Source of the DNA: an uncultured Ignavibacteria bacterium
Lineage (GTDB): Bacteria; Bacteroidota; Ignavibacteria; Tepidaquicellales; OLB5
Reading direction: 5' to 3'
Length of the DNA stretch: 64,000 nucleotides
NCBI GenBank assembly: GCA_937873695.1
Contig: CALMYL010000021.1
Location: forward strand, 124,001 to 188,000
The translations under genes and the position numbers were made by a program. The notes beneath the pieces are model-generated. The model saw only the letters and a program-made list of their open reading frames with translations, was not told where the DNA came from and ran no database searches. Below are positions 4,020 through 24,186 of this stretch, one piece after another. Position 1 is the first letter of the stretch; the number at the start of each line of letters is the position of its first letter.

Positions 4020-5195
4020 TCAAAATCGCAGCCATTCCCTTGGATTCACCGGTGTTGAATTCTGCCATAATTCAAAATGCATGGTCTGACCTTCCAGTGT
4101 TTCACCGGATTTACCAATGACCTGGTTCAGTTTGATCACATCACCTGCTTTAACATTTGTTTCACTTAGCGAAGCGTATACTGACCTGAACCCGTTTGCA
4201 TGAGTAATAATAACTATTTTTCCGTAAAAAGGAATCTCACCGAGTATACTTACAGTACCGTTTGCAATAGCGTAAACTTTTGAGCCCCGTGCTATCGAGA
4301 AATCAACTCCGTTATTTAATGATACTGCTAGAGTTTTATTATCTGAAATGTTTCCGAAGTTCGTTGTGATAAGTCCAATATCAACCGGAAGATTGATATT
4401 TCCTCTGACCTGCTGAAGGTTTTCTGAATCATAACTCAGCCTGTTGTTTTTATTTTCTGCAAAGCTTTCCCTGTTCGCTTCAAGGTTGTTCATAAAATTC
4501 CTGATGTTATTCAGTTGTGTTTCATACCTGGAAATTTTTCCGGCAATCAGGTCAGATTCACTTTCAGCGATGCTTTTTAGTGAGCGCAGTTCTTTCAATC
4601 TTGAATCAAGTACAGCTTTTTCGTTTCGTTTTGATTCTATGTAGAATCTTTGCGATGATGTTGAAAGGGTAAGCATTTTCTTCTTTTCTTCAAGTATGAA
4701 TTTTTTCGCCCGAAGTTCTCTAAGTTCTTTTTTCCGGTTCTGTGAAAATTTCTGCAAATATTGATTTCGTCTCAAATACTCATTCGGGGTCTTTGAACTG
4801 AGAAGCAATTCCAGCTCATAATTTTCGCCATGTTTGTATAACGAAACTACCTTCTGCCTGAAGCTGTTCTGGATCCGTTCAACTTCTTCAGCAAGATAGA
4901 TGATCATATTGGTTTCTATGGCTATCTGGTCAGGGGTCATGAATGATTCGTTTTCGTAATTCTTAAGGAAACTGTTAAGCCCGCTAATTGCTGACTCGAC
5001 GCTGTCAATCTGCTGGTTCAGAATAGCTGTTCTGTTTGTGATCTTTGAAATACCGGTTCTGTTTTCATTAATATATTTTTCAACGTTCTCAGCCTGCTTT
5101 TTTTTATCCTGCAGTATTTCTTCATATGTTGCCCCTGTAATTATCAACAGCAGTACAAGAAACAATGAGTATTTAAGAAAAAAGCTTATTCCCAT
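4020..5195 (-). CDS. EnvC-like murein hydrolase activator (coiled coil plus degenerate LytM/M23)
   Basis: The protein has 391 residues with an N-terminal signal or anchor helix (residues 6-22), a long coiled coil (about 25-250) and a C-terminal LytM/M23 domain (about 275-391). The architecture is that of EnvC, which activates cell-wall amidases during division. The zinc-binding residues of active M23 enzymes are mostly gone: the HxGxD site reads NNGVD, YAHLS reads YASLS, and HLHFE reads TMHFE. That points to a non-catalytic activator, as in E. coli EnvC. It overlaps the DUF4292 gene by 10 bp and closes the lpxB operon. Confidence 0.8.
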   Translation of the reverse strand: MGISFFLKYSLFLVLLLIITGATYEEILQDKKKQAENVEKYINENRTGISKITNRTAILNQQIDSVESAISGLNSFLKNYENESFMTPDQIAIETNMIIYLAEEVERIQNSFRQKVVSLYKHGENYELELLLSSKTPNEYLRRNQYLQKFSQNRKKELRELRAKKFILEEKKKMLTLSTSSQRFYIESKRNEKAVLDSRLKELRSLKSIAESESDLIAGKISRYETQLNNIRNFMNNLEANRESFAENKNNRLSYDSENLQQVRGNINLPVDIGLITTNFGNISDNKTLAVSLNNGVDFSIARGSKVYAIANGTVSILGEIPFYGKIVIITHANGFRSVYASLSETNVKAGDVIKLNQVIGKSGETLEGQTMHFELWQNSTPVNPREWLRF

Positions 5196-6001: not shown

Positions 6002-6659
6002 TCAGATTCCTGGAAAAAGCGCTGTCCATATCCGGCATCCTTTCAGGGTGCCATTGTACAGCAAGCAAAAACGGTTTTCCTGATCTGCTTTCCCATTCAA
6101 CAGCCTCAATTATACCGTCATCAGCTTTAGCTGAAACCATTAATCCTTCACCAACCCTATCTATTGCCTGGTGGTGTGAGCTGTTAACTGTGCCTGAGTT
6201 TTGTTGTACCAGGTCATATAACAGCGTATCTTTTTTTACATTAACATTATGGAGCCGGTCTTCTGATGCCGAGATCTTTTTATGATCTGTACCTCTTACG
6301 GTTTCAATATCATTTATCAGGCTGCCGTTAAGTTTGCAATTGATAAGCTGGAGGCCGCGGCATATGCCCAGGACCGGATATTCATTGGAAAGAGCATATT
6401 CCAGCAGTTTAAACTCAAATCCATCTCTTGCGGGAATGTATTCGCTTCTGTTTTTGCCGTCTTCCCAGTCATTGTAAAACTCAGGGAATATATCAACTCC
6501 GCCTGTCAGCAGAAGAGAAGAGCATTTTTGTATATCATCAAAATTATTGGTTTCCCAGTCAAGGATGATGTATGGAAGGTTGTTATCATCAAGCCATTTA
6601 CAGTATTTCGGGAAACTGCTGTTACTTCTGCTTAATCCTATATACTTATTGAGGCTCAT
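5967..6659 (-). CDS. Class I glutamine amidotransferase, peptidase C26 (gamma-glutamyl-GABA hydrolase type)
   Basis: The protein has 230 residues. The nucleophile elbow is VLGICRGLQLIN with Cys100, and the His-Glu pair is in AVQWHPERM near the C-terminus. The middle contains GTVNSSHHQAID, typical of the PuuD/C26 group that hydrolyses gamma-glutamyl amide bonds. The substrate is unknown: PuuD acts on gamma-glutamyl-GABA, but this gene sits in a lipid A/envelope operon. It overlaps lpxK by 4 bp and the DUF4292 gene by 35 bp, so all are probably translated together. Confidence 0.85.
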   Translation of the reverse strand: MSLNKYIGLSRSNSSFPKYCKWLDDNNLPYIILDWETNNFDDIQKCSSLLLTGGVDIFPEFYNDWEDGKNRSEYIPARDGFEFKLLEYALSNEYPVLGICRGLQLINCKLNGSLINDIETVRGTDHKKISASEDRLHNVNVKKDTLLYDLVQQNSGTVNSSHHQAIDRVGEGLMVSAKADDGIIEAVEWESRSGKPFLLAVQWHPERMPDMDSAFSRNLIEKFREETNKN

Positions 6660-7717
6660 TCAGATTTCAGCAAATTATCAATTTCTTTAAATAAATATTC
6701 ACTATTGCTGTTAATTTGCATTTTTATTTTTGTAAAATAAAGTGGAAAGTTAAATAACAGGTTCTTATATGTGTTATTACTTTTTGCTTTTAATACAAGC
6801 TCTGAATTCTTCAGTCTGACGTAATCCTTTTGTGTGGTAAGAATATGTGAGGAGCCGTTTTTCGAGAATGAATTCATCAGGTTTTCCAGTTCAGTATTGG
6901 TAAAATAGTGATGATCAGGGAAAACAATAAATTCATCAATTTTGATATTCAGCTCATTCAGCAATAATTTAAATGAATCAGGTTCGCCAATGCCGCAATA
7001 TACCGTAGCGCTTTTGATATCTTCAACGGGTAAAACGGTGTTATCAATTCCCCGGATACCTTCAAAAACGTAATTACATATAACCTGCGGCATATTTTTC
7101 CGGTTCTCATTCACAGGGTTTTTTTCAAACTTATTGTTTATAACCAGCAGATCAGCCCGTCTGTAGTTCTTGAGCGGTTCCCTTAATTTTCCGGCAGGTA
7201 TCATGTGTTTATCGCTATCAGGATTGAGAATAACAATATCCAGATCGCGGAACAGTTTCCTGTGCTGAAAACCGTCATCTATAATAATGATCTCAGGTTT
7301 AAATTTTGATGCGGCAAACTTCGCTGCTTTTGTTTTGTCATCACCAACAACAAGCAAACCGCCTTCAAGTCCGGAATCTGAAAGATTTTCCAGAAGCATT
7401 AACGCTTCATCGCCGAGATTTTCGGTGTTAAGCTCATGTTTTTCATTCCGGAAACCTGTTTCAACAACCTTTATATCGTCAAATTCACGTTTGTATCCTT
7501 TGCTGACTATTACTGCAAATTTTTTCTTCTTTAAAAGGTATTCAGTAATCAGCTCAACAAAGGGTGTTTTGCCGGTGCCGCCTGCAGAAATATTGCCGAC
7601 AGAAATAATTTTCGGCTCAAGTACCTTTGCTTTTATAATTCCGGAATTATAAAAAAAATTCCTGAAGAAAACTCCCAGCCTGAACAATAAACTTATTGGT
7701 ATTAGAAATATTTTCAT
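6656..7717 (-). CDS. lpxK: Tetraacyldisaccharide 4'-kinase
   Basis: LpxK phosphorylates the 4' position of the tetraacyldisaccharide to form lipid IVA, at the inner membrane. The P-loop is GNISAGGTGKTP (residues 41-52 from the chosen start), with an N-terminal hydrophobic anchor MKIFLIPISLLFRLGVF. The motif IIIDDGFQHRKL, conserved in LpxK, follows. I place the start at the ATG at 7717, which overlaps the lpxB stop as ATGA. A longer reading to 7786 adds 23 residues inside lpxB that are not family-like. The length of 353 residues is normal. Confidence 0.93.
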   Translation of the reverse strand: MKIFLIPISLLFRLGVFFRNFFYNSGIIKAKVLEPKIISVGNISAGGTGKTPFVELITEYLLKKKKFAVIVSKGYKREFDDIKVVETGFRNEKHELNTENLGDEALMLLENLSDSGLEGGLLVVGDDKTKAAKFAASKFKPEIIIIDDGFQHRKLFRDLDIVILNPDSDKHMIPAGKLREPLKNYRRADLLVINNKFEKNPVNENRKNMPQVICNYVFEGIRGIDNTVLPVEDIKSATVYCGIGEPDSFKLLLNELNIKIDEFIVFPDHHYFTNTELENLMNSFSKNGSSHILTTQKDYVRLKNSELVLKAKSNNTYKNLLFNFPLYFTKIKMQINSNSEYLFKEIDNLLKSE

Positions 7718-8865
7718 ATTCCGGCTGTAAGTTTTATCATTTCTGCGGCATTTACAGAAGCTTCTTTGCTTCCAAGTATATCCCAAACTTTCTTCAGCTC
7801 TGTTTTCATCCTTTGGCTGTACGAATCATCTTCCAGAAGCTTCAACATTTCAGAAGCAATATTTGAGGCTGTAAAATCATTCTGAACAAATTCTCTGACG
7901 GCTTCTTTTCCCAGCAGCAGGTTTGCAATACCCAGCTTATCAACTTTCACAATTGGCTTAAGCAGATAGTAGTTCAGCGGGAAAGTCCTGTAAAAGATGA
8001 GGTATGGTGTGCCCAGCAATGTACACTCCATGGTTGAAGTGCCGGCTTTTGTCATAACTGCATCACTGTTGAGAATGAGATCATAAGTTTTATCTTCAGT
8101 AAGGTTATACCCGGTCAATTGTTCCGTAAAATCATCAAAGTGTTTTTTCATACCCGGTGCTATACTGATATTTACTTCAATATCAATTTTTGATCTTATA
8201 GCTTTTATGGCATCCAGCAAAACGGGTAAGTGATGTTTAACTTCATCTTTTCTGCTGCCCGGCAGCACTGTAACTACTTTTTTTGAGGATCTTCGTTCGA
8301 TCTTTGGATTGTGCTTAATGAATTCCCTGATTCTGCTTATCAAAGGGTGACCGGTGAATTCTGCTTTCACACCGTATTTAGCATAGAAATCAACTTCAAA
8401 GGGGAATACAACAAGCATAAGATCTATGTACTTCTTAACTTTGAATACCCTTTTTTCATGCCAGGCCCAAAGTTGGGGAGAGATATAGTAAATGATCTTA
8501 CCGGAATAAAATTTCCTTATTTCTTCTGCGAGTCTTAAATTGAAACCGGGATAATCGACGAGTATAACCGTATCAGGCAGGTTTTGCCTGATGAATTCCG
8601 CTGATTCTTTCAGCGCCCTTTTAAAAAAAGAATATTTTCTTATTACGCCGGCAAAACCCACAGTTGCAAGATCTTTAGTATGATAGATGGCATTGAATCC
8701 TTCAGTTATCATCCTATCTCCGCCCAAACCGCTGAAAAGAATATCGCTTCCGGGAGACTGAATCCGCAGTTCTTTCATTAATGATGAAGCATGCATATCA
8801 CCTGATGATTCACCTGCTGAAATGAATACAGACCTCTTATCCCGAGAACTGTTTTCTTCTTTCAT
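7714..8865 (-). CDS. lpxB: Lipid-A-disaccharide synthase
   Basis: LpxB joins UDP-2,3-diacylglucosamine and lipid X, releasing UDP, in the Raetz pathway. The 383-residue protein shows the family pattern: ISAGESSGDMHASSLMKEL at the N-terminus, LVDYPGFNLRLAE near residue 100, YYISPQLWAWHEKRV near residue 127, TVLPGSRKDEV, and the donor-site segment AGTSTMECTLLGTPYLIFYR near residue 280. It starts 7 bp after the methyltransferase stop and overlaps lpxK by 4 bp. The protein is complete and ordinary. Confidence 0.95.
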   Translation of the reverse strand: MKEENSSRDKRSVFISAGESSGDMHASSLMKELRIQSPGSDILFSGLGGDRMITEGFNAIYHTKDLATVGFAGVIRKYSFFKRALKESAEFIRQNLPDTVILVDYPGFNLRLAEEIRKFYSGKIIYYISPQLWAWHEKRVFKVKKYIDLMLVVFPFEVDFYAKYGVKAEFTGHPLISRIREFIKHNPKIERRSSKKVVTVLPGSRKDEVKHHLPVLLDAIKAIRSKIDIEVNISIAPGMKKHFDDFTEQLTGYNLTEDKTYDLILNSDAVMTKAGTSTMECTLLGTPYLIFYRTFPLNYYLLKPIVKVDKLGIANLLLGKEAVREFVQNDFTASNIASEMLKLLEDDSYSQRMKTELKKVWDILGSKEASVNAAEMIKLTAGI

Positions 8866-8872
8866 TACCGGG

Positions 8873-9457
8873 TTATTGATTTATAAGAAAATAAATAAGG
8901 ACTATCATTAGAATGCTTATAAAAGCTGATTGGAAGGTCCTTTTTTCTGAAACGTAAGCTGCCTTAACATCACGATCAATTTTTGAACGTTTTGAATCAT
9001 CATATGGAGAAAATTTCGGCAGAAACCGGTTAACATTTTCAAAATAATGCAGGTATTTTTCCCCGAATATCTCTTTTAACTCTGCTTCTTCTTCTTTTAT
9101 GATAAAGTAATACTGGAATGAAAAGTACACAATGCTCAGAATTTGAAGGAATGGAACAAGCGAATTTGACATTATACTGATCCCAAAATACATCAGTATA
9201 TTGCCAATGTATAGCGGGTTCCTTACATACGCAAATGGACCCTGGGTAACCAGCCTGGAAGCACCCGGTTTGCTTGTAGTTCTTGTTTCGCTGCCTGCAT
9301 ACGAAACTCCCCAGAATCTGAATATTTCGCCAATTATAACGAACACCACACCTATTGCCATAGTGGTAATAGTAGGACGGGCGAACAGAAGCATAGGGAT
9401 CAGAAATGGAAGGGGAGTATAAGACCTGTATTGAAAGAAAAATTTACCTAATGTCAT
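8873..9457 (-). CDS. Isoprenylcysteine carboxyl methyltransferase-family membrane protein
   Basis: This 194-residue integral membrane protein has a C-terminal ICMT/PEMT-type methyltransferase core: GPFAYVRNPLYIGNILMYFG near residues 73-92 and EEEAELKEIFGEKYLHYFE near residues 121-139, the SAM-binding half of the family. Four or five hydrophobic helices are visible, including one after the core at the C-terminus. Bacterial members methylate small lipophilic or lipid-head substrates, mostly unknown. The gene is directly upstream of lpxB, which suggests but does not prove a lipid-related substrate. Confidence 0.8.
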   Translation of the reverse strand: MTLGKFFFQYRSYTPLPFLIPMLLFARPTITTMAIGVVFVIIGEIFRFWGVSYAGSETRTTSKPGASRLVTQGPFAYVRNPLYIGNILMYFGISIMSNSLVPFLQILSIVYFSFQYYFIIKEEEAELKEIFGEKYLHYFENVNRFLPKFSPYDDSKRSKIDRDVKAAYVSEKRTFQSAFISILMIVLIYFLINQ

Positions 9458-9487: not shown

Positions 9488-10213
9488 TTAACCCCGCAAA
9501 AAGACTTCGCGTCTCTTGTTTTTTGCCGAATCTCGTTGTTTAATTCTCCTGCTATCAAGAATACGTTCCAGTTTCTTTTTCACATCACCAAATGTCTGGT
9601 ATTCATGATAAGTGATGTTGTTTTTCCAGCAATATGATGCCAGTGATTTCTTAGCGAAAACAATATCCGCATAGTTGACCGCGCATGCATCAGAAAAACC
9701 ATCCCCAATGAAAACAGAAATTTCATCATCTGCTGTATTGTTCATAAGGATATTCCGCTTGCTGGTACCGCATTTTGTGCAATCTGAATCAGCATTGGGA
9801 AATTCCAGTCCAATACTTTTCATGTCAGCGGAAAACACTATCCTGTTTGCGTAGAAGGGTAAATTCAATCCATTGTTCTTCAGAATTCTGTTTATATAGT
9901 AATCCATACCTTCACTTAGTATCATCAACGGCAGGTTTCTTACATTACAGAATTCAACGAACTGCAGAAACATCGGGTCAAGCCTCTGTGAGTCAATTAT
10001 CCTGTCGAACTCAGCCAGATCAAAATCGACAATTAATGAGCATTCTTTTAAAAAACACTCGCGTGCCCCGATCTTCTGCTTCTCAAAGCTCTTTATGACT
10101 TCAGCCCATTTTTGCTTATCATGAATGAAACGTTCACCCATTTCTATCCATGTATCATAAAGGGTAATTGTTCCGTCAAAATCACTGAATATTTTTATTT
10201 TAGGCTGATCCAA
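9488..10213 (-). CDS. MtnX-like HAD phosphatase
   Basis: The protein has 241 residues and a HAD-IB fold: motif I is FSDFDGTITL (residues 9-18), motif II is MILSEGMDYY, motif III includes a lysine in TSKRNIL, and motif IV is IGDGFSD. The family includes MtnX (2-hydroxy-3-keto-5-methylthiopentenyl-1-phosphate phosphatase) and phosphoserine phosphatases. The CTKCGTSK segment before motif III is a Cys pair often seen in MtnX-like proteins. No other methionine-salvage gene is nearby, so the substrate is open. A basic C-terminal tail (RRIKQRDSAKNKRREV) is unexplained. Confidence 0.8.
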   Translation of the reverse strand: MDQPKIKIFSDFDGTITLYDTWIEMGERFIHDKQKWAEVIKSFEKQKIGARECFLKECSLIVDFDLAEFDRIIDSQRLDPMFLQFVEFCNVRNLPLMILSEGMDYYINRILKNNGLNLPFYANRIVFSADMKSIGLEFPNADSDCTKCGTSKRNILMNNTADDEISVFIGDGFSDACAVNYADIVFAKKSLASYCWKNNITYHEYQTFGDVKKKLERILDSRRIKQRDSAKNKRREVFLRG

Positions 10214-11127: not shown

Positions 11128-12177
11128 TCAATAATCAAGTTTTGAGCTTGAGATGAAGTCAGCAAGCAGGTCAACTGTGAGATCAATATCCTTAAGGCTT
11201 AGTGTTTCCACAGATGTATGCAGGTATCGTGTAGCGACCGAAACTACCCCTATCGCAATTCCGCCTCTGGACTGTGAAATAGGATCTGCATCTGTCCAGG
11301 TATGTCCAAAATCAACATCTATTTGATGTTTCATTTTTTTCTTTTTTGCTGCCGCGATAAGTTCATCTGAGAGTTTATTGTTAGTCCTTACTCCCCGTGT
11401 AATAACCGGCCCTTCCGCGAGTTTTGTTACACCGAATCTTTCCTTTGGAATCTCGGGCTGGTCTGAACAAGGGATAACATCAATTGCAATTGCTGCATTC
11501 GGTTTAAAATTGTATGCGGGATTTCCTGCTCCCCATACGCCTGTTTCTTCCTGAACTGAAGAGACTCCGTAAACAGTGTTTTTAAGGTTTCTGACTTTGG
11601 CAAGCTTTCTGAGAGTTTCTGCTACAATATAAACGCCAATTCTGTTATCCCAACATCTTGAAGTAGCGTTACCGTTAGTCATTTCGCAGAAGTCGCCGCC
11701 AAAAACCACAGGATCGCCGATTGAAACGTATTTTTCGGCATCTTTCCTGTTTTTTGCTCCAATATCAAGCCATATATCGTGCATCTCAATTTTCTTATCT
11801 CTTTGTGCATTGGTAAGCAGATGAATGGAGGTTCTGCCAATTACAGCATCAACTGTACCCCTTTTGTTGAGTATTCTTGCACGGTGTGATGCAAGGATGG
11901 TGGGATCAACTCCTCCTATGGGTCTTACATATATGAAACCATCATCGTTAATGTAGTTGATAATCAGTCCAATCTCATCTGAATGGCCAACTATCATAAT
12001 CGATCTTTCTTTACCCGGGTTGAGGGTTGCAGTCAGATTTCCGTGAATATCTTTTTTAATGTCAGGACAGAATTTTTCAACTTCATCCTTCCATATTTTT
12101 TGTACAGGTTCTTCGAATCCTGAAGGGGCGGGCGTGTTAACCAGGTTAACAAGAAATTGCTTTTGTTCGTTTGTCAT
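11128..12177 (-). CDS. M42-family metallo-aminopeptidase (FrvX/endoglucanase-type)
   Basis: The 349-residue protein has all metal-site motifs of the dinuclear M42 peptidases: VGHSDEIG with His65 and Asp67, RCWDNRIG, the catalytic pair in VQEETGVWGA, AIAIDV, and a C-terminal YLHTSVE. These enzymes form large tetrahedral dodecamers and trim free N-termini of peptides in the cytosol. With the oligopeptide transporter in the same window it fits growth on peptides. Genome annotations often miscall this family as cellulase; nothing here supports glycan binding. Confidence 0.9.
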   Translation of the reverse strand: MTNEQKQFLVNLVNTPAPSGFEEPVQKIWKDEVEKFCPDIKKDIHGNLTATLNPGKERSIMIVGHSDEIGLIINYINDDGFIYVRPIGGVDPTILASHRARILNKRGTVDAVIGRTSIHLLTNAQRDKKIEMHDIWLDIGAKNRKDAEKYVSIGDPVVFGGDFCEMTNGNATSRCWDNRIGVYIVAETLRKLAKVRNLKNTVYGVSSVQEETGVWGAGNPAYNFKPNAAIAIDVIPCSDQPEIPKERFGVTKLAEGPVITRGVRTNNKLSDELIAAAKKKKMKHQIDVDFGHTWTDADPISQSRGGIAIGVVSVATRYLHTSVETLSLKDIDLTVDLLADFISSSKLDY

Positions 12178-12278: not shown

Positions 12279-15200
12279 TCAGGAAGCTATCTTCTGGTCG
12301 TTAAACTTAACGTTCACTATTGTTGATATACCCTGTTCTGCCATAGTTACTCCATACATTGAATCGGCAGCTTCCATTGTGCGTTTATTATGTGTAACAA
12401 TAATAAACTGGGTATCCTGCGCGAATTTGCGTATAATTTTTATATACCTGTCAATATTAGCGTCATCAAGCGGAGCATCAACCTCATCAAGTATACAGAA
12501 TGGCGAAGGTTTAACCTGGTAAATGGCAAACAGCAGGGCAATAGCAGTCAGAGTTTTTTCTCCGCCCGAGAGCAGGTCTATTAACTGCGGTCTTTTACCC
12601 CTTGGTTTGGCAATAATATCGATCTTCGCATCAAGCGGGTCAGGATTATCGGGATCAATAACCAGCCTGAGGTCAGATTCATCGCCTTCAAGAAACAGCT
12701 CTTTGAAAATAGCTATGAAATTCTGTCTTATCTGCTCAAATGTTTCTGTGAATTTATTCTGCGCTGTTTTATTTATCTCGTCAATCAGATTAATAAGATC
12801 CTGTTCAGCCTTAACCAGGTCGTTCCTTTCTTCCGAAAGTTTCTCAAGCTCCTGCTTTTCCTGTTCATATAAATTAAGCTCTAACTGACCCGAGCCGCCA
12901 AGAGTACGAAGCTTGTTCTTAAGTCTGTCTACTTCTGCTTTTGCTTTAACAAGGTCAAATATTTCAGAATCTTCAAAAACAGTGTACTCAATATCCAGCT
13001 CATATTCTTCTTTAACCCTGTCTCTGTGTTCTTTTATTTCAAGCCTGTCACGCGTGAGTTTCATTTCATTTTTGTGAATGAAATCTATAATGCTATCGCG
13101 GTTATTACGAAGTTCTTTCTGTTCACTTTCAACTTTATCTACCAGCGAGCGTTTTACTTCGTATTCGCTTCTGATCAGCGCGAAATCTGATTCAATGCCC
13201 GCCTTTTCAATTTCAAGAAGCTTAAGCCTGGGTTTAAGTCCGTTAACTGAGTTTTCGGAGTTGTATGCTTCTATTTCGGCTGAAAGTTTCTTTATTTCCG
13301 ATTCATATTCATTACATTCCAGCGCGCGGGCTTCAATACTGCTCTTTCTTGATTTGATGCTCTCATCCGTTCTGAAATGTTCATTTTCAAGATTTTTGAA
13401 TTCAGCTTTTACTTTGGTAATTTCTATGTTAAATGTGTTATATTCTTCACGCTGTGAAGTAAGTTCATCAGCAAGATTTTCAAGTTCAGTGGTAAAATGC
13501 TCAAGTTCCTTTTCGCGCTGGTATTTCACATTTTCAGCAGATTCAATATCCTGAATCAGAGAATCCATTTTATCGGAAAGCTCTTTATTGGAAATATTCA
13601 GCTCGTCGTTTTCCTGTTTATAATGTGCGATAAGCTTGTTTGTCTCATTTTTGCTGAATTGCAGCTGCTGAAGCTTATTTTCGGCATTAAGTACCTGCGC
13701 TCTTTTTTCCTGTATCCTGTTCTGTCTTATATCAACATCAATTGCGGCGTAACTGCTTTTTAATTCGCTTAAATTTCTGCTGTCAGAACTGATGCTCTCT
13801 TCTATTTCATTAATCTGTTTCTGCAGGTCTGCAATAAGTTTTTCTCTCCCTATTTTTAGAGATTCAATATTAGTTTTGCTTCCGGCACGAAGAAAACTAT
13901 TGGTAATAATATCACCATCAAGCGTAATGAATTTAATGAAATTATCGCTGGATAGTTTCCTGGCAATATCTATGTTTTCAACAATTACAAATTCATCAAG
14001 CAGGTATTTATAAAGCATAAAGTACTCGTCGGGGCATTTAACAAACCTGTCTGCCCACCCGTAAACACCCTCATGACCCAGTATTTCAGGAAATTCTTCC
14101 TGGAATATATTCATTGTTGTATTGTAAAGCTTATCCTTGATTATAAAAGTAACTTTTCCCTTTTGGTCCCGGGTCAGTATCTTAATGAAATTTTCGGCAG
14201 CATCAAGGTTTTCTACAATGAGATAATTAGAAATTTCACCAAGTGCAGTTTCAATCGCAATTTTGAATTTATCTTCAACTTCCAGTTTGTCAATCACTAC
14301 AAATCCGGCTTTTTCGTTCTTTTCTTTTACAAGGTGTTTGATGCCTTCAGAGTAATCGTCAAAATTTTCAAGCAGGTTGGTCTGGAATTCGATCTTGTTT
14401 TTCAGCTTGTCAGCTTCATGCTGCCTGTAGATAATATCCTTTTCGAGCCTGGAAAGTTCTTCCCTCAGATTTTCCTTAAGCTTCTTCTGTTCGCTGAATT
14501 CAGAAGTCATTAATGTAAGCTCTTCTTTAAGGCTTTTCAGTGAAGTCTCGGCATCTCTCAGGCTCTGGTCATATCCGGCAACTTTGTTAATATTAACTAT
14601 ATTATCTTCGGCAAGTTTACTGCATCTGGAAATCTGGTCTTCAAGCCTGTTTTTTATTATCTCATATTCGCTTCTTTTTTCCTGCAGCGCTTTTGATGAT
14701 GAAGCATGTTTTGAAGTGAGATCTTTCAGTTCTTCCTTGCTTACTTTAACTTTCTGTTCGGTCTCGTCAAGGCTGGTTTTTTTTGTTATCCTGGAGCCTT
14801 CCATCAATTCAGTTGTATTCTTCAATACAACTATCTTATCTTCAATTTCGGTTTTTCTTATGCTAAGCCGTTCTATCTCGGCTTCGATCTCTATTTTTTC
14901 CCTTTTAAAACGCTCAATATTTTCATCAAGATACTTTATCCGCTGCTCTGCGATAGAGATTGCGGTCTGTAACTCATTAATGTTCAGGTTAATGTTATTG
15001 AGCTTTTCTCTTGAATCATTTAACCTGGATTCAGTAAAGGTAAGTTCAGATTTATATTTGTCGATAATGCTTTCATTTTCGTTAAGGCTATGCTGCAGTT
15101 TTTCGCGTTCTGTTTCTTTGATCTTCAGTTCGCCTTCAATGCTCTTTGTTTCATCCAGAAGTTTAGAAAGCGCTCTTGTATGATACTCTATTTCGATCTC

Positions 15201-15869
15201 CTTAAGCTTAACACTCACTTCTTTGGCTTCCTGCTGCTTCTGGGCAATGCGCTCGTATGCGTTTACAGTACGCTGACGGTTCCTTATTTCAATATTTGCC
15301 TCATTGATATTCTCACGGGCAACTTCCAGCTTATAGAGTGCCTCGCGCCGGCGTTCTTTGTATTTAGTTATCCCTGAAGCCTCTTCGAAGAGTTTTCTTC
15401 TATCCTGTGTGCGGTGCGAAAGTATTTCGTTCACCATTTTCAGCTCAATCACAGAATAAGCATCAGAGCCCATACCGGTATCCATAAACAGGGCTGTAAT
15501 ATCCTTTAATCTGCAATTGACCCCATTGAGCATATAATTGCTGGCGCCATCTCTGAAACAGCGGCGAGTTATCTTTATTTCTGTGTATTCACTGGGGAGG
15601 ATACCTTTAGTGTTCTGGACGGTAAGAGAAACTTCCGCGTAGCCCAGGGGTTTACGGTTCTTGGTTCCGTTGAAAATGACATTTTCCATTGTGGAACTTC
15701 TGAGAACGCTTGCTTTTTGTTCACCAATTGCCCAGCGTACGGCATCAACAATATTTGTTTTGCCGCAGCCATTTGGTCCAACAATTGCCGTCATGCCAGC
15801 ATCAAAATCTACTGCAATCTTATCAGCAAAAGACTTAAACCCGAAAATTTCAAGTTTACTTAAATACAA
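12279..15869 (-). CDS. smc: Chromosome segregation protein SMC
   Basis: The protein has 1196 residues, the normal length. The N-terminal ATPase half has Walker A GPNGCGKTN (residues 31-39); the C-terminal half has LLSGGEKTLTAIALLFA and Walker B FCILDEVDAPLDD. Long coiled coils flank a hinge near residues 500-680, which contains the GFVVIDKLEVEDKFKIAIET stretch. It folds and segregates the chromosome as a dimer with ScpA and ScpB, which are not in this window. The start codon is TTG at 15869; the family-typical N-terminus YLSKLEIFGFKSFADK begins immediately after it and no ATG fits. Confidence 0.95.
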   Translation of the reverse strand: MYLSKLEIFGFKSFADKIAVDFDAGMTAIVGPNGCGKTNIVDAVRWAIGEQKASVLRSSTMENVIFNGTKNRKPLGYAEVSLTVQNTKGILPSEYTEIKITRRCFRDGASNYMLNGVNCRLKDITALFMDTGMGSDAYSVIELKMVNEILSHRTQDRRKLFEEASGITKYKERRREALYKLEVARENINEANIEIRNRQRTVNAYERIAQKQQEAKEVSVKLKEIEIEYHTRALSKLLDETKSIEGELKIKETEREKLQHSLNENESIIDKYKSELTFTESRLNDSREKLNNINLNINELQTAISIAEQRIKYLDENIERFKREKIEIEAEIERLSIRKTEIEDKIVVLKNTTELMEGSRITKKTSLDETEQKVKVSKEELKDLTSKHASSSKALQEKRSEYEIIKNRLEDQISRCSKLAEDNIVNINKVAGYDQSLRDAETSLKSLKEELTLMTSEFSEQKKLKENLREELSRLEKDIIYRQHEADKLKNKIEFQTNLLENFDDYSEGIKHLVKEKNEKAGFVVIDKLEVEDKFKIAIETALGEISNYLIVENLDAAENFIKILTRDQKGKVTFIIKDKLYNTTMNIFQEEFPEILGHEGVYGWADRFVKCPDEYFMLYKYLLDEFVIVENIDIARKLSSDNFIKFITLDGDIITNSFLRAGSKTNIESLKIGREKLIADLQKQINEIEESISSDSRNLSELKSSYAAIDVDIRQNRIQEKRAQVLNAENKLQQLQFSKNETNKLIAHYKQENDELNISNKELSDKMDSLIQDIESAENVKYQREKELEHFTTELENLADELTSQREEYNTFNIEITKVKAEFKNLENEHFRTDESIKSRKSSIEARALECNEYESEIKKLSAEIEAYNSENSVNGLKPRLKLLEIEKAGIESDFALIRSEYEVKRSLVDKVESEQKELRNNRDSIIDFIHKNEMKLTRDRLEIKEHRDRVKEEYELDIEYTVFEDSEIFDLVKAKAEVDRLKNKLRTLGGSGQLELNLYEQEKQELEKLSEERNDLVKAEQDLINLIDEINKTAQNKFTETFEQIRQNFIAIFKELFLEGDESDLRLVIDPDNPDPLDAKIDIIAKPRGKRPQLIDLLSGGEKTLTAIALLFAIYQVKPSPFCILDEVDAPLDDANIDRYIKIIRKFAQDTQFIIVTHNKRTMEAADSMYGVTMAEQGISTIVNVKFNDQKIAS

Positions 15870-16030: not shown

Positions 16031-18601
16031 TTACAGCTTTAAAAAAGTCATGACAAGTCTGAAATAATCAAACACAAACCTGGTAGTGTTGAGATAAAAA
16101 ATTGTTCCTCCCAGAATAAGAACAACAGAAAGAACCCCGTATGCATAAACCTTGACAAAAAACGTATCAAAGAGGAGGTAAGTACCTTTCAGGATCCTGT
16201 ACAAAGATATCAGGTAAAGAAATCCTGCAACCGCAAGGCCTATGATAACAAAATCTGTGTTAGCCTGCAGTATCCTGATGTAGAACGTACCAATTGCCAG
16301 AAGCAGTATTGTTGGGAGGAGCCCCCATACTGTAATGGTGTAAATATTATTAAAGCCTACCCTGTATTTGATAGTAAGCGAGAACAGCCAGATTACAACC
16401 GTTATGAAAAAGATCTTTATAAACGAAATTGCGGCAAGCGCGCCCACAAGCTTCACCGGATTGGAAATGAACTGATCGGCATAGATCTTCACTATATCAT
16501 TTGATAAAACAACCGAAAGCATAATATCCAGAAGCTGTGAATCCTTCCAGAAATACAATAAATTTGCAAAGAAAAGTCCGCTTCCGATCGAGATAATTAT
16601 TGCCAGCAAAACATTATGAAAAGTGGGGATAAGATTCTGTTCTCTTACATCGGTATAAAATATAAATGGCCTGAATATTGCTCTCCACACATTTTCTCGG
16701 AACCTTCTTACACTGTTTGCAAGGTAAATGAACAGAATAAAGCAGATTAGGCCGGTAAATACAAAGGCCAGCGGTGCTTCTCTGGAAAACGTGCCAATAT
16801 TAAGATTAGGTATATCTTCATCCAGGAATTCTTTTCTTAAAATTATCGCAGGCGGTCTTTGTTCGCGGAACAATGTATATAGACCGCTTGTACGCATATA
16901 CTGGTTTGTCTGATCAGGATATTTCAGGTTTGGCACATCTGAATTCCAGTCAGTGAATGACTGAAAGAAGCCGCCCATAAGAGGCGAAGCCTTGCTAACC
17001 TTGATGAAATCAACAATGAATTTTGACTGTGATTCCAGTGAAGATGGGTCACTGTACCCCGAAGTATTTGAAGGATTAATTATCTTGCCGTAATTGGAAA
17101 TAAAAAGCTTATCCTTTTTCAGCTTCATATCAGGAGCTGCATTTTTCAGCAGGCTAAGATCGTTATCGTAAAAATTAATGCCCACAATATCAACAAGGTC
17201 TCTGCACTTATCTTCGTAATAGCTGCGTGTTGAATAGTAAAGAAGCCTGTTATCCAGATTTCTTGCTGCTGCGACCATACGTTTTACATAGGTTTGACCT
17301 GCTGTCCCCGTTACATCAAAATCATTTCCAAGGCCAAAGGCAAAAATGCATGGGTTATTCTTATGAGAGAGTATAACTTCGTTCAGCTGATTTTCTGCCA
17401 GCTGAAGAAAATTTTCGGATTCAAGTATTGAAGATGGAACTGTATATACAGGAATCTCTTCCATCACAAGCAGGCCATATTTATTGCACACATCTATTAA
17501 ATAAGAACCGGCAGGCCTGCCGTATATTTTGATGATATTACATCCAAGAGATTTTATAAGTTTAATATCTCTTTCAATATCGCTGTAATTTGCGCATATG
17601 CCTGAGGCGCCGAATTCTTCAATGTAATTAATTCCTTTAAACTTGAACTCATTGTTGTTCAGCACCAGGCTGCCCTGTTTGCGAACAAGCTCATATAAAC
17701 CAAAATCAGAACTGTATACATCAACAACCTGCTCGCCTTGTGTAATTGTGACCCGCAGTTTGTACAGGTAAGGATATTCAGGTGACCAGTAAACCGGACC
17801 GTTGAGCTCAAACTTATTGACTGCCTGGATAGTTGAATTTGATGAAACGGAAAACTGAACAGCATCGCTGGAAGCTTTTACAGTACCCGAGCTGTCAAGA
17901 AGTTCTGTTTTTACTGAAAATTTCCTGTCACTTCCCAGGAACCTGTCTATATCGGTTGCGCTTATGGTAACTGTATTCCGGATATCTGCATTAAAATTGA
18001 TATCAATTTCGGACTGGAGATTTGAATTTTTTATATAGACTTTTGGCACGGCAACAATATAAATATCCCGGTATATGCCGCCATAGTTCTTTGGATAGTT
18101 TGCGGTGTTCTTTAAGGGAATGGTCCTTGAAGCATCAAGAGCGTTATCTATTTTTATTTCAATAATATTGCCTGACTCTTTGATAAGACCTTCAGCAATT
18201 GAGGCCGAAAAAGGAGTGAAACCTCCTTCGTGTTTAACAATGAAACTGCCGTTGATCTTGATCTCAGCCTGATAATTGATGCCGTCACAATATATAATGA
18301 AATTCCAGTCATTGGGTGATTCAAGCCCGGTACTGAACATCCTTGAAACAGTAACCTTGCCTTTGAAATCATAGCAAAAGGGAACAGATATCTGAGAAGC
18401 GCTATTGTACTGCGATGAGAAATCCCATTGACCGTTGAGGTTAATAAGCTTTCTATAATCGTTTTGCAGAGTTTGCTGAAATGTCAGCGGAATATCGGTT
18501 GAGTTGCGGCTTATAAGCCTGTTTTGAGAGAACAAATCAGCACATAATATCAGGCTTAGCCATACAAATATCTTTAAATAACGAGCCGCTATCTTTATCA
18601 A
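16031..18601 (-). CDS. Catalytically degenerate GH2-like protein fused to a polytopic membrane domain
   Basis: The protein has 856 residues. After a signal peptide (about 1-25) come the three regions of a GH2 glycosidase: sugar-binding jelly roll, Ig-like domain and TIM barrel (about 320-600). Both catalytic glutamates are replaced: the acid/base site reads GLGND (Asp427 in place of Glu) and the nucleophile site reads FISNYG (Asn503 in place of Glu). From about residue 608 to the end there are six or seven membrane helices resembling a Yip1-type domain. The barrel would lie on the outer face of the inner membrane. Enzyme activity is unlikely; a sugar-sensing or scaffolding role is inferred. 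The gene stands alone with its own putative operator. Confidence 0.75.
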   Translation of the reverse strand: MIKIAARYLKIFVWLSLILCADLFSQNRLISRNSTDIPLTFQQTLQNDYRKLINLNGQWDFSSQYNSASQISVPFCYDFKGKVTVSRMFSTGLESPNDWNFIIYCDGINYQAEIKINGSFIVKHEGGFTPFSASIAEGLIKESGNIIEIKIDNALDASRTIPLKNTANYPKNYGGIYRDIYIVAVPKVYIKNSNLQSEIDINFNADIRNTVTISATDIDRFLGSDRKFSVKTELLDSSGTVKASSDAVQFSVSSNSTIQAVNKFELNGPVYWSPEYPYLYKLRVTITQGEQVVDVYSSDFGLYELVRKQGSLVLNNNEFKFKGINYIEEFGASGICANYSDIERDIKLIKSLGCNIIKIYGRPAGSYLIDVCNKYGLLVMEEIPVYTVPSSILESENFLQLAENQLNEVILSHKNNPCIFAFGLGNDFDVTGTAGQTYVKRMVAAARNLDNRLLYYSTRSYYEDKCRDLVDIVGINFYDNDLSLLKNAAPDMKLKKDKLFISNYGKIINPSNTSGYSDPSSLESQSKFIVDFIKVSKASPLMGGFFQSFTDWNSDVPNLKYPDQTNQYMRTSGLYTLFREQRPPAIILRKEFLDEDIPNLNIGTFSREAPLAFVFTGLICFILFIYLANSVRRFRENVWRAIFRPFIFYTDVREQNLIPTFHNVLLAIIISIGSGLFFANLLYFWKDSQLLDIMLSVVLSNDIVKIYADQFISNPVKLVGALAAISFIKIFFITVVIWLFSLTIKYRVGFNNIYTITVWGLLPTILLLAIGTFYIRILQANTDFVIIGLAVAGFLYLISLYRILKGTYLLFDTFFVKVYAYGVLSVVLILGGTIFYLNTTRFVFDYFRLVMTFLKL

Positions 18602-18643: not shown

Positions 18644-18674
18644 ACTCCTATGGAGTCATTTCACTGCAAATATA
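18644..18674 (-). promoter_or_regulatory. Candidate promoter and palindromic operator of the GH2-membrane fusion gene
   Basis: On the minus strand a TATATTTG box (18667-18674, TAnnTTTG type) is followed by the 13-bp palindrome ACTCCATAGGAGT at 18644-18656, which would lie at the transcription start or just after it, about 43 bp before the ATG. A repressor or other dimeric regulator could bind there. No matching regulator was identified in the window. Confidence 0.35.
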
Positions 18675-18734
18675 TTAATAATAGAGAGCAAAATAAAGGG
18701 ATTACCAGGTAAATCCGGGCAAATCTGGAAAGCA

Positions 18735-19766: not shown

Positions 19767-21398
19767 ATGAAGTATTTTATTGTATTTTTGATGCTTTTTT
19801 CATGCAGTGCAGCCGTTTATTCACAATACGGAAATTCTGAAGCTGAAGCCAGAGTTCCGGTAACTTTTCCTTCAAAAGGCACTTTTGAAGGTGACTATAC
19901 CAGCGCGATTTTTATGAATAAAAATCTTTCCGTTAACACAGCTCCGCAGAATGAACCATCTATAAGGATAAGCAGAGTAAACCCGAATTACGTTGTAGCT
20001 GCCTGGCGTGATTTCAGGCTTGGATACATTGAACCTGCAATTGTAAGAAGGATCGGCTATACCTATTCCACTGACGGGGGTTCAACATGGGCACCATCTC
20101 AGCTTCTCCCTGACCCAAATCCAGATCACACATCTCAGAGTGACCCGGTGATAACAACAGACTCACAGGGAAGTTTTTACATATCCAGTACTTCCAGGAA
20201 GCCTGTTACAGGCTACAACCGTGATATGCTTCTTTACAAATCGACCAACAACGGACAGACATTTTTTCTGCATTCAATCGCAGTGCCGGGTTCAGGCGGA
20301 GCGGGCGAAGATAAAGAGTGGATTTTCTGCGATCCTGTTATGACCAATACAACATATGATAATATTTTTATATCATGGACAAGTTTCGGTCCGCAGCCCG
20401 GAATTAAATTCCGTAAATCTACCAATGGAGGATTGAATTGGTCATCAACCGTAAATATTGGCGATAATACTTCCGGTCAGGGATCTAACATTTGTTCAGG
20501 TACAGGCAATCAGATTTATGTTGTCTGGGATGCCGGCGGAATCAGGTTTGATAAGTCTACAAACGGCGGTACAAGTTTTGGATCAGATTACCAGTTAAGC
20601 AATGTTTCAACAACAAACGGTTTTCCTTTTATATGCTGTGATTATTCAAACAACTCAACCAGAGGAAATGTGTATGTTATTTGGGATGATATGCGCGGAG
20701 GTAATTCTGATGTCTGGTTCCAGCGCTCAACCAACGGCGGCGCAAACTGGCTTGCTTCGCCGGTTAGGGTAAATGATGTAACAACCAATAACCAGTACTG
20801 GCCGGTCATACAATGTGATAATAACGGCATTCTTTACGCAATGTATTATGATACAAGGGCTGGTGCTTCCATGGTAAACACATATGTTGCTTACTCAACT
20901 GATGCGGGAACAACGTGGTCTAACCAATTGATGAGTGATTCTTCGTTCACCGCTACGCCGGTAGGCGGCACCAGCGGTGATGTGAGATATGGTGATTACA
21001 TACAAATAGATGCATACAACGGCAAAGTAATTCCTGTGTGGACAGATGACAGGAAAGGTACGCCAAATCAGGAGATCTATACGGCAAATCTTTCAGGATT
21101 GCTGCCGGTGAATCCGCTGAGCACTGAAGTGCCGCGAAGTTTTGCATTATATCAGAACTATCCGAATCCATTTAATCCGGTTACCAGGATAAATTTTGAT
21201 ATTCCTGTTTCTTCGTTTGTCAGTCTGAAACTTTTTGATATACTTGGCAGGGAAGTAAAAATACTTGTGGCTCAGAACCTGAATGCCGGGAAGTTCTATA
21301 CTGAAGTTGATGGTTCAGCCTTATCAGGGGGTGTATATTTTTATAAACTGGAAGCAGGCAATTTCACTGAAAGTAAAAAGCTGGTTCTGATCAAGTAA
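19767..21398 (+). CDS. Secreted Asp-box (BNR/sialidase-like) repeat protein with T9SS sorting tail
   Basis: The 543-residue protein has a signal peptide (MKYFIVFLMLFSCSAAVYSQ) and a predicted beta-propeller marked by at least five Asp-box motifs (STDGGSTW, STNGGLNW, STNGGTSF, STNGGANW, STDAGTTW). The last 85 residues or so are a type A T9SS sorting domain: YQNYPNPFNPVTRINFDIP, a GREV turn and the end KKLVLIK. It is therefore exported and anchored or released at the cell surface. Asp boxes occur in sialidases but also in many non-enzymes; no FRIP motif or catalytic set was seen, so a substrate is not claimed. Confidence 0.85.
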   Translation: MKYFIVFLMLFSCSAAVYSQYGNSEAEARVPVTFPSKGTFEGDYTSAIFMNKNLSVNTAPQNEPSIRISRVNPNYVVAAWRDFRLGYIEPAIVRRIGYTYSTDGGSTWAPSQLLPDPNPDHTSQSDPVITTDSQGSFYISSTSRKPVTGYNRDMLLYKSTNNGQTFFLHSIAVPGSGGAGEDKEWIFCDPVMTNTTYDNIFISWTSFGPQPGIKFRKSTNGGLNWSSTVNIGDNTSGQGSNICSGTGNQIYVVWDAGGIRFDKSTNGGTSFGSDYQLSNVSTTNGFPFICCDYSNNSTRGNVYVIWDDMRGGNSDVWFQRSTNGGANWLASPVRVNDVTTNNQYWPVIQCDNNGILYAMYYDTRAGASMVNTYVAYSTDAGTTWSNQLMSDSSFTATPVGGTSGDVRYGDYIQIDAYNGKVIPVWTDDRKGTPNQEIYTANLSGLLPVNPLSTEVPRSFALYQNYPNPFNPVTRINFDIPVSSFVSLKLFDILGREVKILVAQNLNAGKFYTEVDGSALSGGVYFYKLEAGNFTESKKLVLIK

Positions 21399-21420
21399 TA
21401 TATAAATTTGTGTTTTTTAT

Positions 21421-21455
21421 AAAGCAACCCCATTCACAGGGGTTGCTTTTTTTTT
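21421..21455 (+). terminator. Rho-independent terminator
   Basis: AAGCAACCCC and GGGGTTGCTT form a 10-bp stem with a 7-nt loop, followed by a long T run. It lies 23 bp after the Asp-box gene, so the GH81 gene downstream has its own promoter. Confidence 0.9.
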
Positions 21456-21507
21456 CAGATATAGTCATATTACATGCTTATTAAGCAATTTTCCGGAGGA
21501 TGGCACA

Positions 21508-24186
21508 TTGAAATTTTTACAGATTGTCTTGTTTGTTTCAGTTTTGGTTCTTAATAGTTATTCGCAGTGGAATTATGGTTCACCTTTTTCAACTGTCCAG
21601 CAGCAGTCTACGTGGCAGCAGGTTGTAAGCAAAGTACCCATAACAGGCAATACTATATTAGATAGTTTAACTGCACCTTACCCAACCAACGCCTGGTTTA
21701 ATTTATTTTTTCTATACGGAACAGCGTACCCGAATCCCCAGGGGACAATAGGACAGAATTTCACATGGGTAAATCCGTATAACATAGGCTCCGGTTATAA
21801 TTATATAGGATATTCAAATCCGCGTGCTTTGCTGGGCATAAATTATAAACCGTTTGCGGTAACAACTACCGGCGGCAGCTTCCCAACGGTTAACTGGGAT
21901 AACGGCGCTTATATGTACTTCGGAACAACGAATCCGGCAAATTTTACACCTATAATACGTAATGACTACACTGATCTCTCTGTGACAGTTAAGTTCTATA
22001 ACACAACCAACACAAATAATTATTATTACGCACCAATTGTCCGGGGAATGCCTTATGTAACAATGTTCTATAATAACGTTACGCCGGCCGTGTATTTTCC
22101 GTCGCCTGCAGTATGGAAAGTTAATGACGTAATCGCAGGTGCCAATCAAACTTTTACCGGTACTGAGTTCAAAGTGCAGACGGTTGTAGGAGATCCTAAT
22201 TTATACAGGTCTCAAACCTGGATGCTTTTCAGTTCACAATCAATTACGCTTCAGTTCAGCCAGGCGGCACAAACACTTGGCTTGATAGGAACTTCAAATT
22301 TTACCGGTTATATAAGAGCCGCGCATTTAACTTATGCCAATGACCCTAATGCCTCAGATACGACAAGCCGCAAATCACTGCTTCGTTCATATGCAAAATT
22401 TGTACCTTTGAGAGGTGAAGTCGGCGCATCAATTCCTAACGGAAGCAGTACTGCCACGTTAAACTTCAATTACACACGTTATAATGAAGGTTCTCTATTG
22501 GGTGATTCATTATTAATGATGGCTTTGCCGCATCATGTTGATATTTTGCCCGGAGGAAGCACAACAAACATACTGAAGTACCAGGTTTTGAAAGGTACAA
22601 TGAGCGAAGTTAAAACAAAAACATGGAGCATGACAGAACAGCTTCCGGGCTATTCATGGAGCCCGCGTTCCGGCGGACTTGCCAATGTTCCGTTGCAGTG
22701 GTGCGATACACTGAAATACTATGTAAACGGAGATCTTGTAAATTTTAACAGGCAGTATCAATGGATGGATATATACAGTGCAGCTAAATCATTGGCCAAG
22801 CTGGGCAGAATTATTGAAATAGCAGATGAACTCTATGAAAGAGATCAGACAAGATATGCCGCAATGCAGCCGCTGGCTGCCACTATGCGTGATTCATTGC
22901 AGATATTTTTGGGCAAATGGCTAAACGGCAACAGCTCAATATTCTATAATGGTGTGCCGTATCAGAAGGATTCTTTACTGTATGATACAAAATTCAGAGG
23001 GATTATTTCAAGCCGCTCACATGACTCGCTTAACCTCAACAATGGAATCGATTTTGGCAGCGCACTGTATAATGATCATCATTTCCATTACGGCTATTTG
23101 CTTTACGCTGCAGCAGTTGTTGCAAAGAAAAATTCTTCGTGGTTTACGGCCAATAGTAATTACTACTCAAATCGCGTTGTTGATCTTGCCCGCGAAATAG
23201 CCAATCCAAGCAGAAGCGATAATTATTTTGCATTGCAGCGTTACAAAGACTGGTATGACGGTAACTCATGGGCAAACGGACTGGTACCTTATGGCGGCGG
23301 TAAGAACCAGGAAAGCTCCAGCGAAGCTGCCAATGCGTGGTATGGCTTGTATCTTTTCGGGCTGGCAATGAATAATGCGGCTCCCAATACTCAGTACAGC
23401 AATATGCTGAACCAGGGACAATTAATGCTTTCGCAGGAAGTAAGGGCAACACAGAAATATTATTATGCAAATCAAACCAACCCTGTTTACCCGGCAGTAT
23501 ATACTGATCAATTTAAAACCGTTACAAATCTTTACCAGGGCAGGATAGATGCGAGCACATTTTTCGGCTCGGTTAATTATTACGCCACGGGAATCCAGGT
23601 AATTCCTGTTACACCGGTGACAGAACAATTCTGGAGCAATATTGCATTTGCCAAACAGGTATATGATTACTCTCCAAATGGTCTGCGAAACACACCTTGT
23701 TTTGATTCGACAAATACAAACACAACAGTGTGGAACTGGACCACTATAAATGTGGGAATTCAGGCAACGGCTTACCCGCAAACTGCGCTGAATTTCTGGA
23801 AATTTTACGGGCATACAAACACAAATTTTGATAACGGTTCAAGCCAGTCAAATGTTATGTACTGGATCTTAACAAGAAATCACAACACTATTGGCGTGAG
23901 TCCAATTTCAAATGAAATTCCCGGGGAGTTCAGGCTGTATCAGTGTTATCCCAATCCATTTAACCCTGGTACTGCCATTAAGTTTGATATCTCCAAAACA
24001 TCTAATGTAAAATTAGTTGTTTATGATGCACTTGGCAGACAGGTTGAAGAGCTTGTAAATGGCGAGCTGAAAGCGGGCTCTTACAAAGCAGAATGGAATG
24101 CTTCTCAGTTCAGCAGCGGTGTGTACTTCTATAGTTTAATTTCAGGAGATTTTGTTCAAACCAAAAAAATGGTACTAGTAAAATAA
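21508..24186 (+). CDS. GH81 endo-1,3-beta-glucanase with T9SS sorting tail
   Basis: The 892-residue protein has a signal peptide (about 1-19), then a GH81 domain to about residue 790. Family landmarks are PYPTNAWFNLFF near the N-terminus, NDHHFHYGYLLYAAAVV (Asp523) and GGGKNQESSSEAANAWYGL with Glu602 and Glu606; all catalytic positions are kept. GH81 enzymes cut internal beta-1,3-glucan bonds (laminarin, fungal or algal glucan). The C-terminal 80 residues are a T9SS tail (YQCYPNPFNPGTAIKFDIS). The start is TTG at 21508 with GGAGGA 7 nt upstream; no ATG fits. Confidence 0.93.
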   Translation: MKFLQIVLFVSVLVLNSYSQWNYGSPFSTVQQQSTWQQVVSKVPITGNTILDSLTAPYPTNAWFNLFFLYGTAYPNPQGTIGQNFTWVNPYNIGSGYNYIGYSNPRALLGINYKPFAVTTTGGSFPTVNWDNGAYMYFGTTNPANFTPIIRNDYTDLSVTVKFYNTTNTNNYYYAPIVRGMPYVTMFYNNVTPAVYFPSPAVWKVNDVIAGANQTFTGTEFKVQTVVGDPNLYRSQTWMLFSSQSITLQFSQAAQTLGLIGTSNFTGYIRAAHLTYANDPNASDTTSRKSLLRSYAKFVPLRGEVGASIPNGSSTATLNFNYTRYNEGSLLGDSLLMMALPHHVDILPGGSTTNILKYQVLKGTMSEVKTKTWSMTEQLPGYSWSPRSGGLANVPLQWCDTLKYYVNGDLVNFNRQYQWMDIYSAAKSLAKLGRIIEIADELYERDQTRYAAMQPLAATMRDSLQIFLGKWLNGNSSIFYNGVPYQKDSLLYDTKFRGIISSRSHDSLNLNNGIDFGSALYNDHHFHYGYLLYAAAVVAKKNSSWFTANSNYYSNRVVDLAREIANPSRSDNYFALQRYKDWYDGNSWANGLVPYGGGKNQESSSEAANAWYGLYLFGLAMNNAAPNTQYSNMLNQGQLMLSQEVRATQKYYYANQTNPVYPAVYTDQFKTVTNLYQGRIDASTFFGSVNYYATGIQVIPVTPVTEQFWSNIAFAKQVYDYSPNGLRNTPCFDSTNTNTTVWNWTTINVGIQATAYPQTALNFWKFYGHTNTNFDNGSSQSNVMYWILTRNHNTIGVSPISNEIPGEFRLYQCYPNPFNPGTAIKFDISKTSNVKLVVYDALGRQVEELVNGELKAGSYKAEWNASQFSSGVYFYSLISGDFVQTKKMVLVK

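Follow-up and report, generated by a model that had tools for sequence, protein, structure and literature searches.

The window analysed here is a stretch of 64,000 nucleotides from an uncultured Ignavibacteria bacterium, in which one gene encodes a protein that combines the fold of glycoside hydrolase family 2 (GH2) with a C-terminal membrane domain and carries neither of the two catalytic glutamates. This raises the question of what such a protein does and how it came about. With a probability of roughly 0.55, we regard it as an ancient, vertically kept pseudoenzyme that acts as a periplasm-facing, non-hydrolytic membrane receptor or scaffold. The features of the locus are given in Table 1.

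Fold, catalytic positions and membrane domain

Residues ~37-606 of the AlphaFold model (mean pLDDT 88.6) were superposed on GH2 enzymes by Foldseek and VIA-align, the best VIA-align match being the beta-galacturonidase 6ncw (Z 36.9, rmsd 2.3, 528 residues, model residues 37-595). The window protein is thus a complete GH2 fold as far as the predicted model goes. Pfam detected the immunoglobulin-like domain and the barrel, and Glyco_hydro_2_N scored 27.6 bits against a cut-off of 28. Across the family alignment A1, the three GH2 domains were found at E ≤ 1 in 49/49 (barrel), 48/49 (immunoglobulin-like) and 47/49 (jelly roll) sequences. A TTG start (18599-18601 in the window) was assigned in the window and in 12 of 12 close relatives (L002-L013) by a script that prefers ATG; many family members beyond these start with ATG, TTG being a conserved weak start.

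The sequence-only reading had claimed that GLGND (residues 423-427) stands in place of the acid/base motif SLGNE and FISNYG (residues 500-505) in place of the nucleophile motif SEYG or TEYG. Alignment with GH2 structures bore this out, as phmmer paired GND with GNE of PDB 4ypj and 8q2h, and ISNYG with the nucleophile segment of 6ncy. The 105 family members were then aligned jointly with 20 ordinary GH2 proteins of the same phylum, which were the top-scoring non-family hits and not a random draw. Glu occupied position 427 in 10/105 family members compared to 20/20 comparators, and position 503 in 12/105 compared to 20/20. Both glutamates were present in all 20 comparators and in none of the 105 family members, of which 22 kept exactly one. 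Mispairing of the catalytic positions is ruled out by the Glu found in 20/20 comparators at each site, and it follows from these counts that no other pair of glutamates occupies the catalytic places. The count covers sequences of at least 700 aa with a membrane-profile hit; contig-end pieces (L034, L036, L037, L128 and pieces in G001, G006 and G039), the membrane-only L035 and the frame-broken copy of G095 were left out, and several same-class members from the phylum draw, mainly of families f10, f14, f17 and f18, are absent from it.

That the family is non-catalytic is well supported, and judging from its sequences no GH2 hydrolytic activity is to be expected. The single Glu in 22/105 members counts against our reading insofar as it leaves room for odd chemistry there. 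One could accordingly imagine that the protein is still an enzyme which works through other residues or the single Glu, for example by transglycosylation or a substrate-assisted route, and the glutamates kept at the nucleophile or the acid/base position would fit this. However, the states of positions 427 and 503 differ widely between close families (D, G, N, S, P, R, K, Y and others), so that these places hold no conserved alternative pair, and we consider such an enzyme very improbable.

A loop past the nucleophile strand contains two residues that set the family apart: Asn512 was found in 96/105 family members versus 0/20 comparators, and Gly515 in 105/105 versus 1/20. Since both directly follow the old nucleophile strand, what used to be the active-site face may now serve another purpose. 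The majority of the other invariant ectodomain residues are conserved in ordinary GH2 proteins too, which speaks for upkeep of the fold no less than for a new binding site and counts against our reading.

The sequence-only reading had also described a polytopic, Yip1-like membrane domain behind the barrel that tethers the protein to the membrane. Six transmembrane helices are indeed predicted, TM1 at residues 611-630 and five further helices at 660-684, 715-741, 762-780, 784-811 and 815-841. The segment between TM1 and TM2 is net positive in 105/105 family members, which by the positive-inside rule would place the GH2 part outside the cytosol, presumably facing the periplasm. Pfam Yip1 (PF04893) did not match the window protein itself and matched 21 of 29 aligned family membrane domains at E ≤ 1; among ten domains scanned closely, nine matched, mostly near end to end, and two exceeded the cut-off of 28.6 bits. 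The Yip1-like assignment of the window domain therefore rests on its relatives. When the membrane-domain model was compared to the PDB, no hit was obtained at E ≤ 0.001, an absence which proves nothing, and the matches listed included no entry identified as Yip1.

Table 1. Position of the pseudoenzyme gene, its parts and its surroundings in the window
Feature	Position	Strand	Basis or remark
Gene, GH2-fold pseudoenzyme with Yip1-like membrane domain	16031..18601	minus	856 aa, TTG start; orthologues aligned
Putative N-terminal signal peptide, aa 1-26	18524..18601	minus	single model helix 2-20; hydropathy
GH2 N-terminal jelly-roll (sugar-binding) domain, ~aa 40-186	18044..18484	minus	Pfam Glyco_hydro_2_N
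GH2 immunoglobulin-like domain, ~aa 188-302	17696..18040	minus	Pfam PF00703, 51.9 bits
GH2 TIM barrel, ~aa 303-600	16802..17695	minus	Pfam PF02836, 59 bits; structural alignment
Asp427 codon at acid/base Glu position	17321..17323	minus	phmmer and joint alignment
Asn503 codon at nucleophile Glu position	17093..17095	minus	phmmer and joint alignment
Loop past nucleophile strand, Asn512-Gln525	17027..17068	minus	family-specific Asn512, Gly515
Predicted membrane domain, aa 606-856: TM1, basic cytosolic segment, five Yip1-like TM helices	16034..16786	minus	model, hydropathy, Pfam on relatives
Promoter-like element TATATTTG	18667..18674	minus	conserved in all ten aligned genus loci
Upstream promoter-like element CCTTTATTTT	18690..18699	minus	core CTTTATTTT invariant in ten loci
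Palindrome ACTCC-ATA-GGAGT	18644..18656	minus	inside ~22-base insertion; listed as stem; 3/10 loci
smc, next gene downstream	12279..15869	minus	Pfam SMC_N, SMC_hinge; class-wide adjacency
M42 aminopeptidase, operon context	11128..12177	minus	
HAD-family phosphatase, operon context	9488..10213	minus	
PEMT/ICMT-family membrane methyltransferase, operon context	8873..9457	minus	
lpxB, operon context	7714..8865	minus	
lpxK, operon context	6656..7786	minus	
M23 peptidase with N-terminal coiled coil (EnvC-like by eye), end of same-strand run	4020..5195	minus	Pfam M23

Descent and distribution of the family

In a tree calculated without the two catalytic columns, all 105 family members were set apart by a single branch (SH-aLRT 100). 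At least five state changes at the nucleophile and at least ten at the acid/base position are required on this tree, which was built by a quick method and has some long branches, the direction of change being inferred. Among genus members, dN/dS was 0.01-0.04 where computable, whether for the ectodomain, for the barrel by itself or for the membrane part, a rough figure as dS is near or past saturation. The family is under strong purifying selection. Low dN/dS and an uninterrupted frame in nearly all relatives rule out a local pseudogene or a sequencing error. One copy that looks broken, with the gene split over three overlapping frames, was seen in a 2.2 Mb single-contig genome (L230; G095, f15).

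The gene was detected in 58 of 59 relatives, and in a profile draw of the phylum (395 genomes) the same fusion was present in 96 of the 98 same-class genomes listed. Full-length matches outside the class belonged to families f25, f28, f43 and f55 of this draw, and the named records among the family matches are mostly Ignavibacteria. Within the genus, a GH2 barrel profile matched 11 of 13 genomes, each at the present gene, the second match in G006 being a fragment of the same gene on another contig. As the genus yielded no second GH2 barrel gene, a decayed paralogue of a metabolic GH2 enzyme in the same genome is ruled out. The catalytic loss is thus no local accident, and the best reading is that it is ancient and vertically kept. 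This class-wide conservation had escaped the sequence-only reading, as had the link to smc and the lipid A genes and the existence of shortened relatives in another class.

These shortened relatives were matched in 42 of 60 genomes of the class of G073, which at a guess is Rhodothermia-like. In an alignment of 20 of those 42 (A6), the two beta domains are absent, and what remains is a decayed barrel with the membrane part. Pfam recognised GH2 in 1/20 of these sequences at E 0.033 and Yip1 in 0/20, and hhalign aligned A6 with the long family at E 4.2e-38 over 487 columns that cover the barrel and the membrane domain. With the A6 profile, proteins of ~460-800 aa were found in many further families of the phylum draw, including f27, f32, f36, f44, f46 and f47. 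In three proteins of f36 (L251, L253 and L254, ~475 aa) the last part of the barrel is gone too. G052 encodes the membrane domain alone (294 aa), with smc next downstream.

The shortened barrels of the second class and the membrane-only protein of G052 would also suit the idea that function resides in the membrane domain, the GH2 part being a relic retained for folding or spacing. We find this doubtful, as the ectodomain is under the same constraint as the membrane part at genus level and keeps its full length in almost the entire class. In favor of a receptor or scaffold, the membrane-only copy of G052 still stands before smc, and the short forms retain the barrel together with the membrane domain.

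Gene neighbourhood and upstream region

To describe the gene neighbourhood, 92 loci were surveyed, three of which lie at a contig edge and two of which (L037 and L054) are halves of one G050 gene. In 73 of the 89 loci with a downstream neighbour, smc followed directly on the same strand, the two open frames often being separated by a stop codon only. The usual order past smc is M42 peptidase, HAD phosphatase, PEMT/ICMT methyltransferase, lpxB, an acyltransferase (named by eye) and lpxK. Beyond lpxK, the window has a C26 peptidase, a DUF4292 lipoprotein and the M23 peptidase; the lipoprotein and the coiled-coil M23 peptidase (window 4020-6001) close the gene run of the pseudoenzyme. Two secreted proteins of 543 and 892 aa with YPNPFNP-type C-terminal sorting tails are encoded at 19767-24186 of the window, the larger one being GH81 glucanase-like by eye.

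In the remaining 16 of 89 loci, which belong to several families, smc was not adjacent, and neighbours such as hrcA-dnaJ, SAICAR synthetase with ftsW, GCS2 or Ppx/GppA were found instead. In L031, hrcA is next and dnaJ close; genes of 356-380 aa at that place in other f14/f15 loci (L140, L152 and others) may correspond. No copy of the pseudoenzyme gene was found in G257, where smc is present. Both observations count against our reading. G012 and G207 gave hits for neither gene, which fits a single lost or unassembled stretch. In the class with the short forms, smc adjacency was seen for G073 and G125 only, which likewise counts against our reading, and among 18 smc-bearing genomes lacking the fusion or the link, G073 alone was positive for a Yip1-like or barrel-membrane gene before smc.

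From gene order, a functional tie of the family to SMC may exist. We give even odds to the view, compatible with our reading of the protein, that the link is inherited gene order only and carries no functional meaning. The other operon genes also keep their order and the link was lost in the 16 loci mentioned, but the smc pair outlasts the rest of the operon, lipid A genes included, in f28, f43 and f55, and it also occurs in f33 of another class.

The lipid A genes bear on a further explanation, by which the Yip1-like part would transport or flip an envelope precursor, with the GH2 part as its ancillary ectodomain, just as 4F2hc and rBAT accompany amino-acid transporters. lpxB and lpxK share the operon in many families, the membrane domain persists alone in G052, and a 2019 review of Yip1 proteins, in its accessible parts, proposes that prokaryotic members may act as transporters or receptors (PMC6682643). 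In contrast, the membrane model matched no transporter fold in the PDB at E ≤ 0.001, and the f28, f43 and f55 loci lack neighbouring lipid A genes while smc is still there. A transporter is conceivable, albeit unlikely.

For the receptor or scaffold that we favor, the following course of events is proposed. A secreted GH2 glycosidase would have lost its acid/base and nucleophile Glu, and TM1 and the five-helix Yip1-like domain would have fixed the dead GH2 part to the inner membrane. There it may bind, without cutting, an envelope ligand, be it a glycan, a glycolipid or a protein partner; sugar binding or sensing, as supposed by the sequence-only reading, would be one form of this. The Yip1-like part and the conserved basic cytosolic segment might relay the state of the ligand or hold an envelope complex together, and the operon place with smc and the lipid A genes could reflect coordination of envelope growth with the cell cycle. 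We put forward only tentatively, and with little confidence, that the receptor is as old as the phylum and arose from a captured glycosidase, that the dead GH2 part senses, outside the inner membrane, the state of envelope glycans or of lipid A and, via the Yip1-like domain and the basic segment, tunes SMC-driven segregation or the envelope genes of the same operon, and that in a sister class the glycosidase shrank past recognition by Pfam.

Upstream of the gene, CTTTATTTT and, further down, ATATATTTG are invariant 5' of the start codon in 10/10 genus loci. These elements resemble the Bacteroidota promoter, TATATTTG being similar to its -7 consensus TAnnTTTG. Promoter-like matches in the region (18) were about as many as in shuffled sequences (mean 14.8, sd 4.0), so that it is conservation which argues for a promoter here. 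A palindromic operator had been proposed just downstream of it. The palindrome does lie downstream of the promoter-like element, but as a family feature the operator finds no support: the insertion that contains it, between this element and the start codon, is confined to 3/10 genus loci, those of the window and its two closest relatives. Across these three loci the loop varies (ATA or TTT) and the arms are unchanged.

Comparison with known systems

The family has the three-domain fold in common with GH2 beta-glucuronidases and beta-galacturonidases (PDB 6ncw, 5z1a, 6jz1), whereas the window protein lacks both catalytic Glu and is fused to a polytopic membrane domain. A membrane domain of five helices is likewise typical of prokaryotic members of the Yip1 family (PF04893), whose profile matches relatives of the window protein, the window member being undetected by itself. 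In the accessible parts of the 2019 review, no function is reported for prokaryotic Yip1 proteins, and a GH2-fold fusion is not mentioned (PMC6682643). As far as the literature on bacterial Yip1 proteins, GH2 and glycoside-hydrolase pseudoenzymes was accessible, it contained no report of a GH2-Yip1 fusion; the accessible literature on Ignavibacteria, smc and gene neighbourhood likewise contained nothing on a pseudoenzyme-smc pair.

To prokaryotic Yip1 proteins, the family adds an ectodomain whose fold is known, an almost universal presence in one class and smc as central neighbour, so that a role becomes testable. Further, the path from enzyme to receptor-like protein is documented at class scale with living intermediates (one Glu left, barrel only, membrane domain only), and a name can be given to many proteins otherwise annotated as beta-galactosidase or left blank.

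Membrane-anchored pseudo-glycosidases with a non-catalytic ectodomain that serves as co-receptor or chaperone are known from animals, namely 4F2hc and rBAT (GH13-like) and Klotho (GH1-like). Heparanase-2, in the part of the literature accessible to us, is described as a secreted glycosidase fold without catalysis. Like these proteins, the present family has a glycosidase fold without catalysis; they differ from it in that they belong to other GH families and another kingdom, and have no Yip1-like domain and no link to smc. Taken together, the data suggest that a former enzyme turned into a conserved receptor or scaffold of the membrane in almost every Ignavibacteria genome checked, and the family extends the known membrane-anchored pseudo-glycosidases, among which it is unusual in its age, its near-universality in a bacterial class and its smc neighbourhood.
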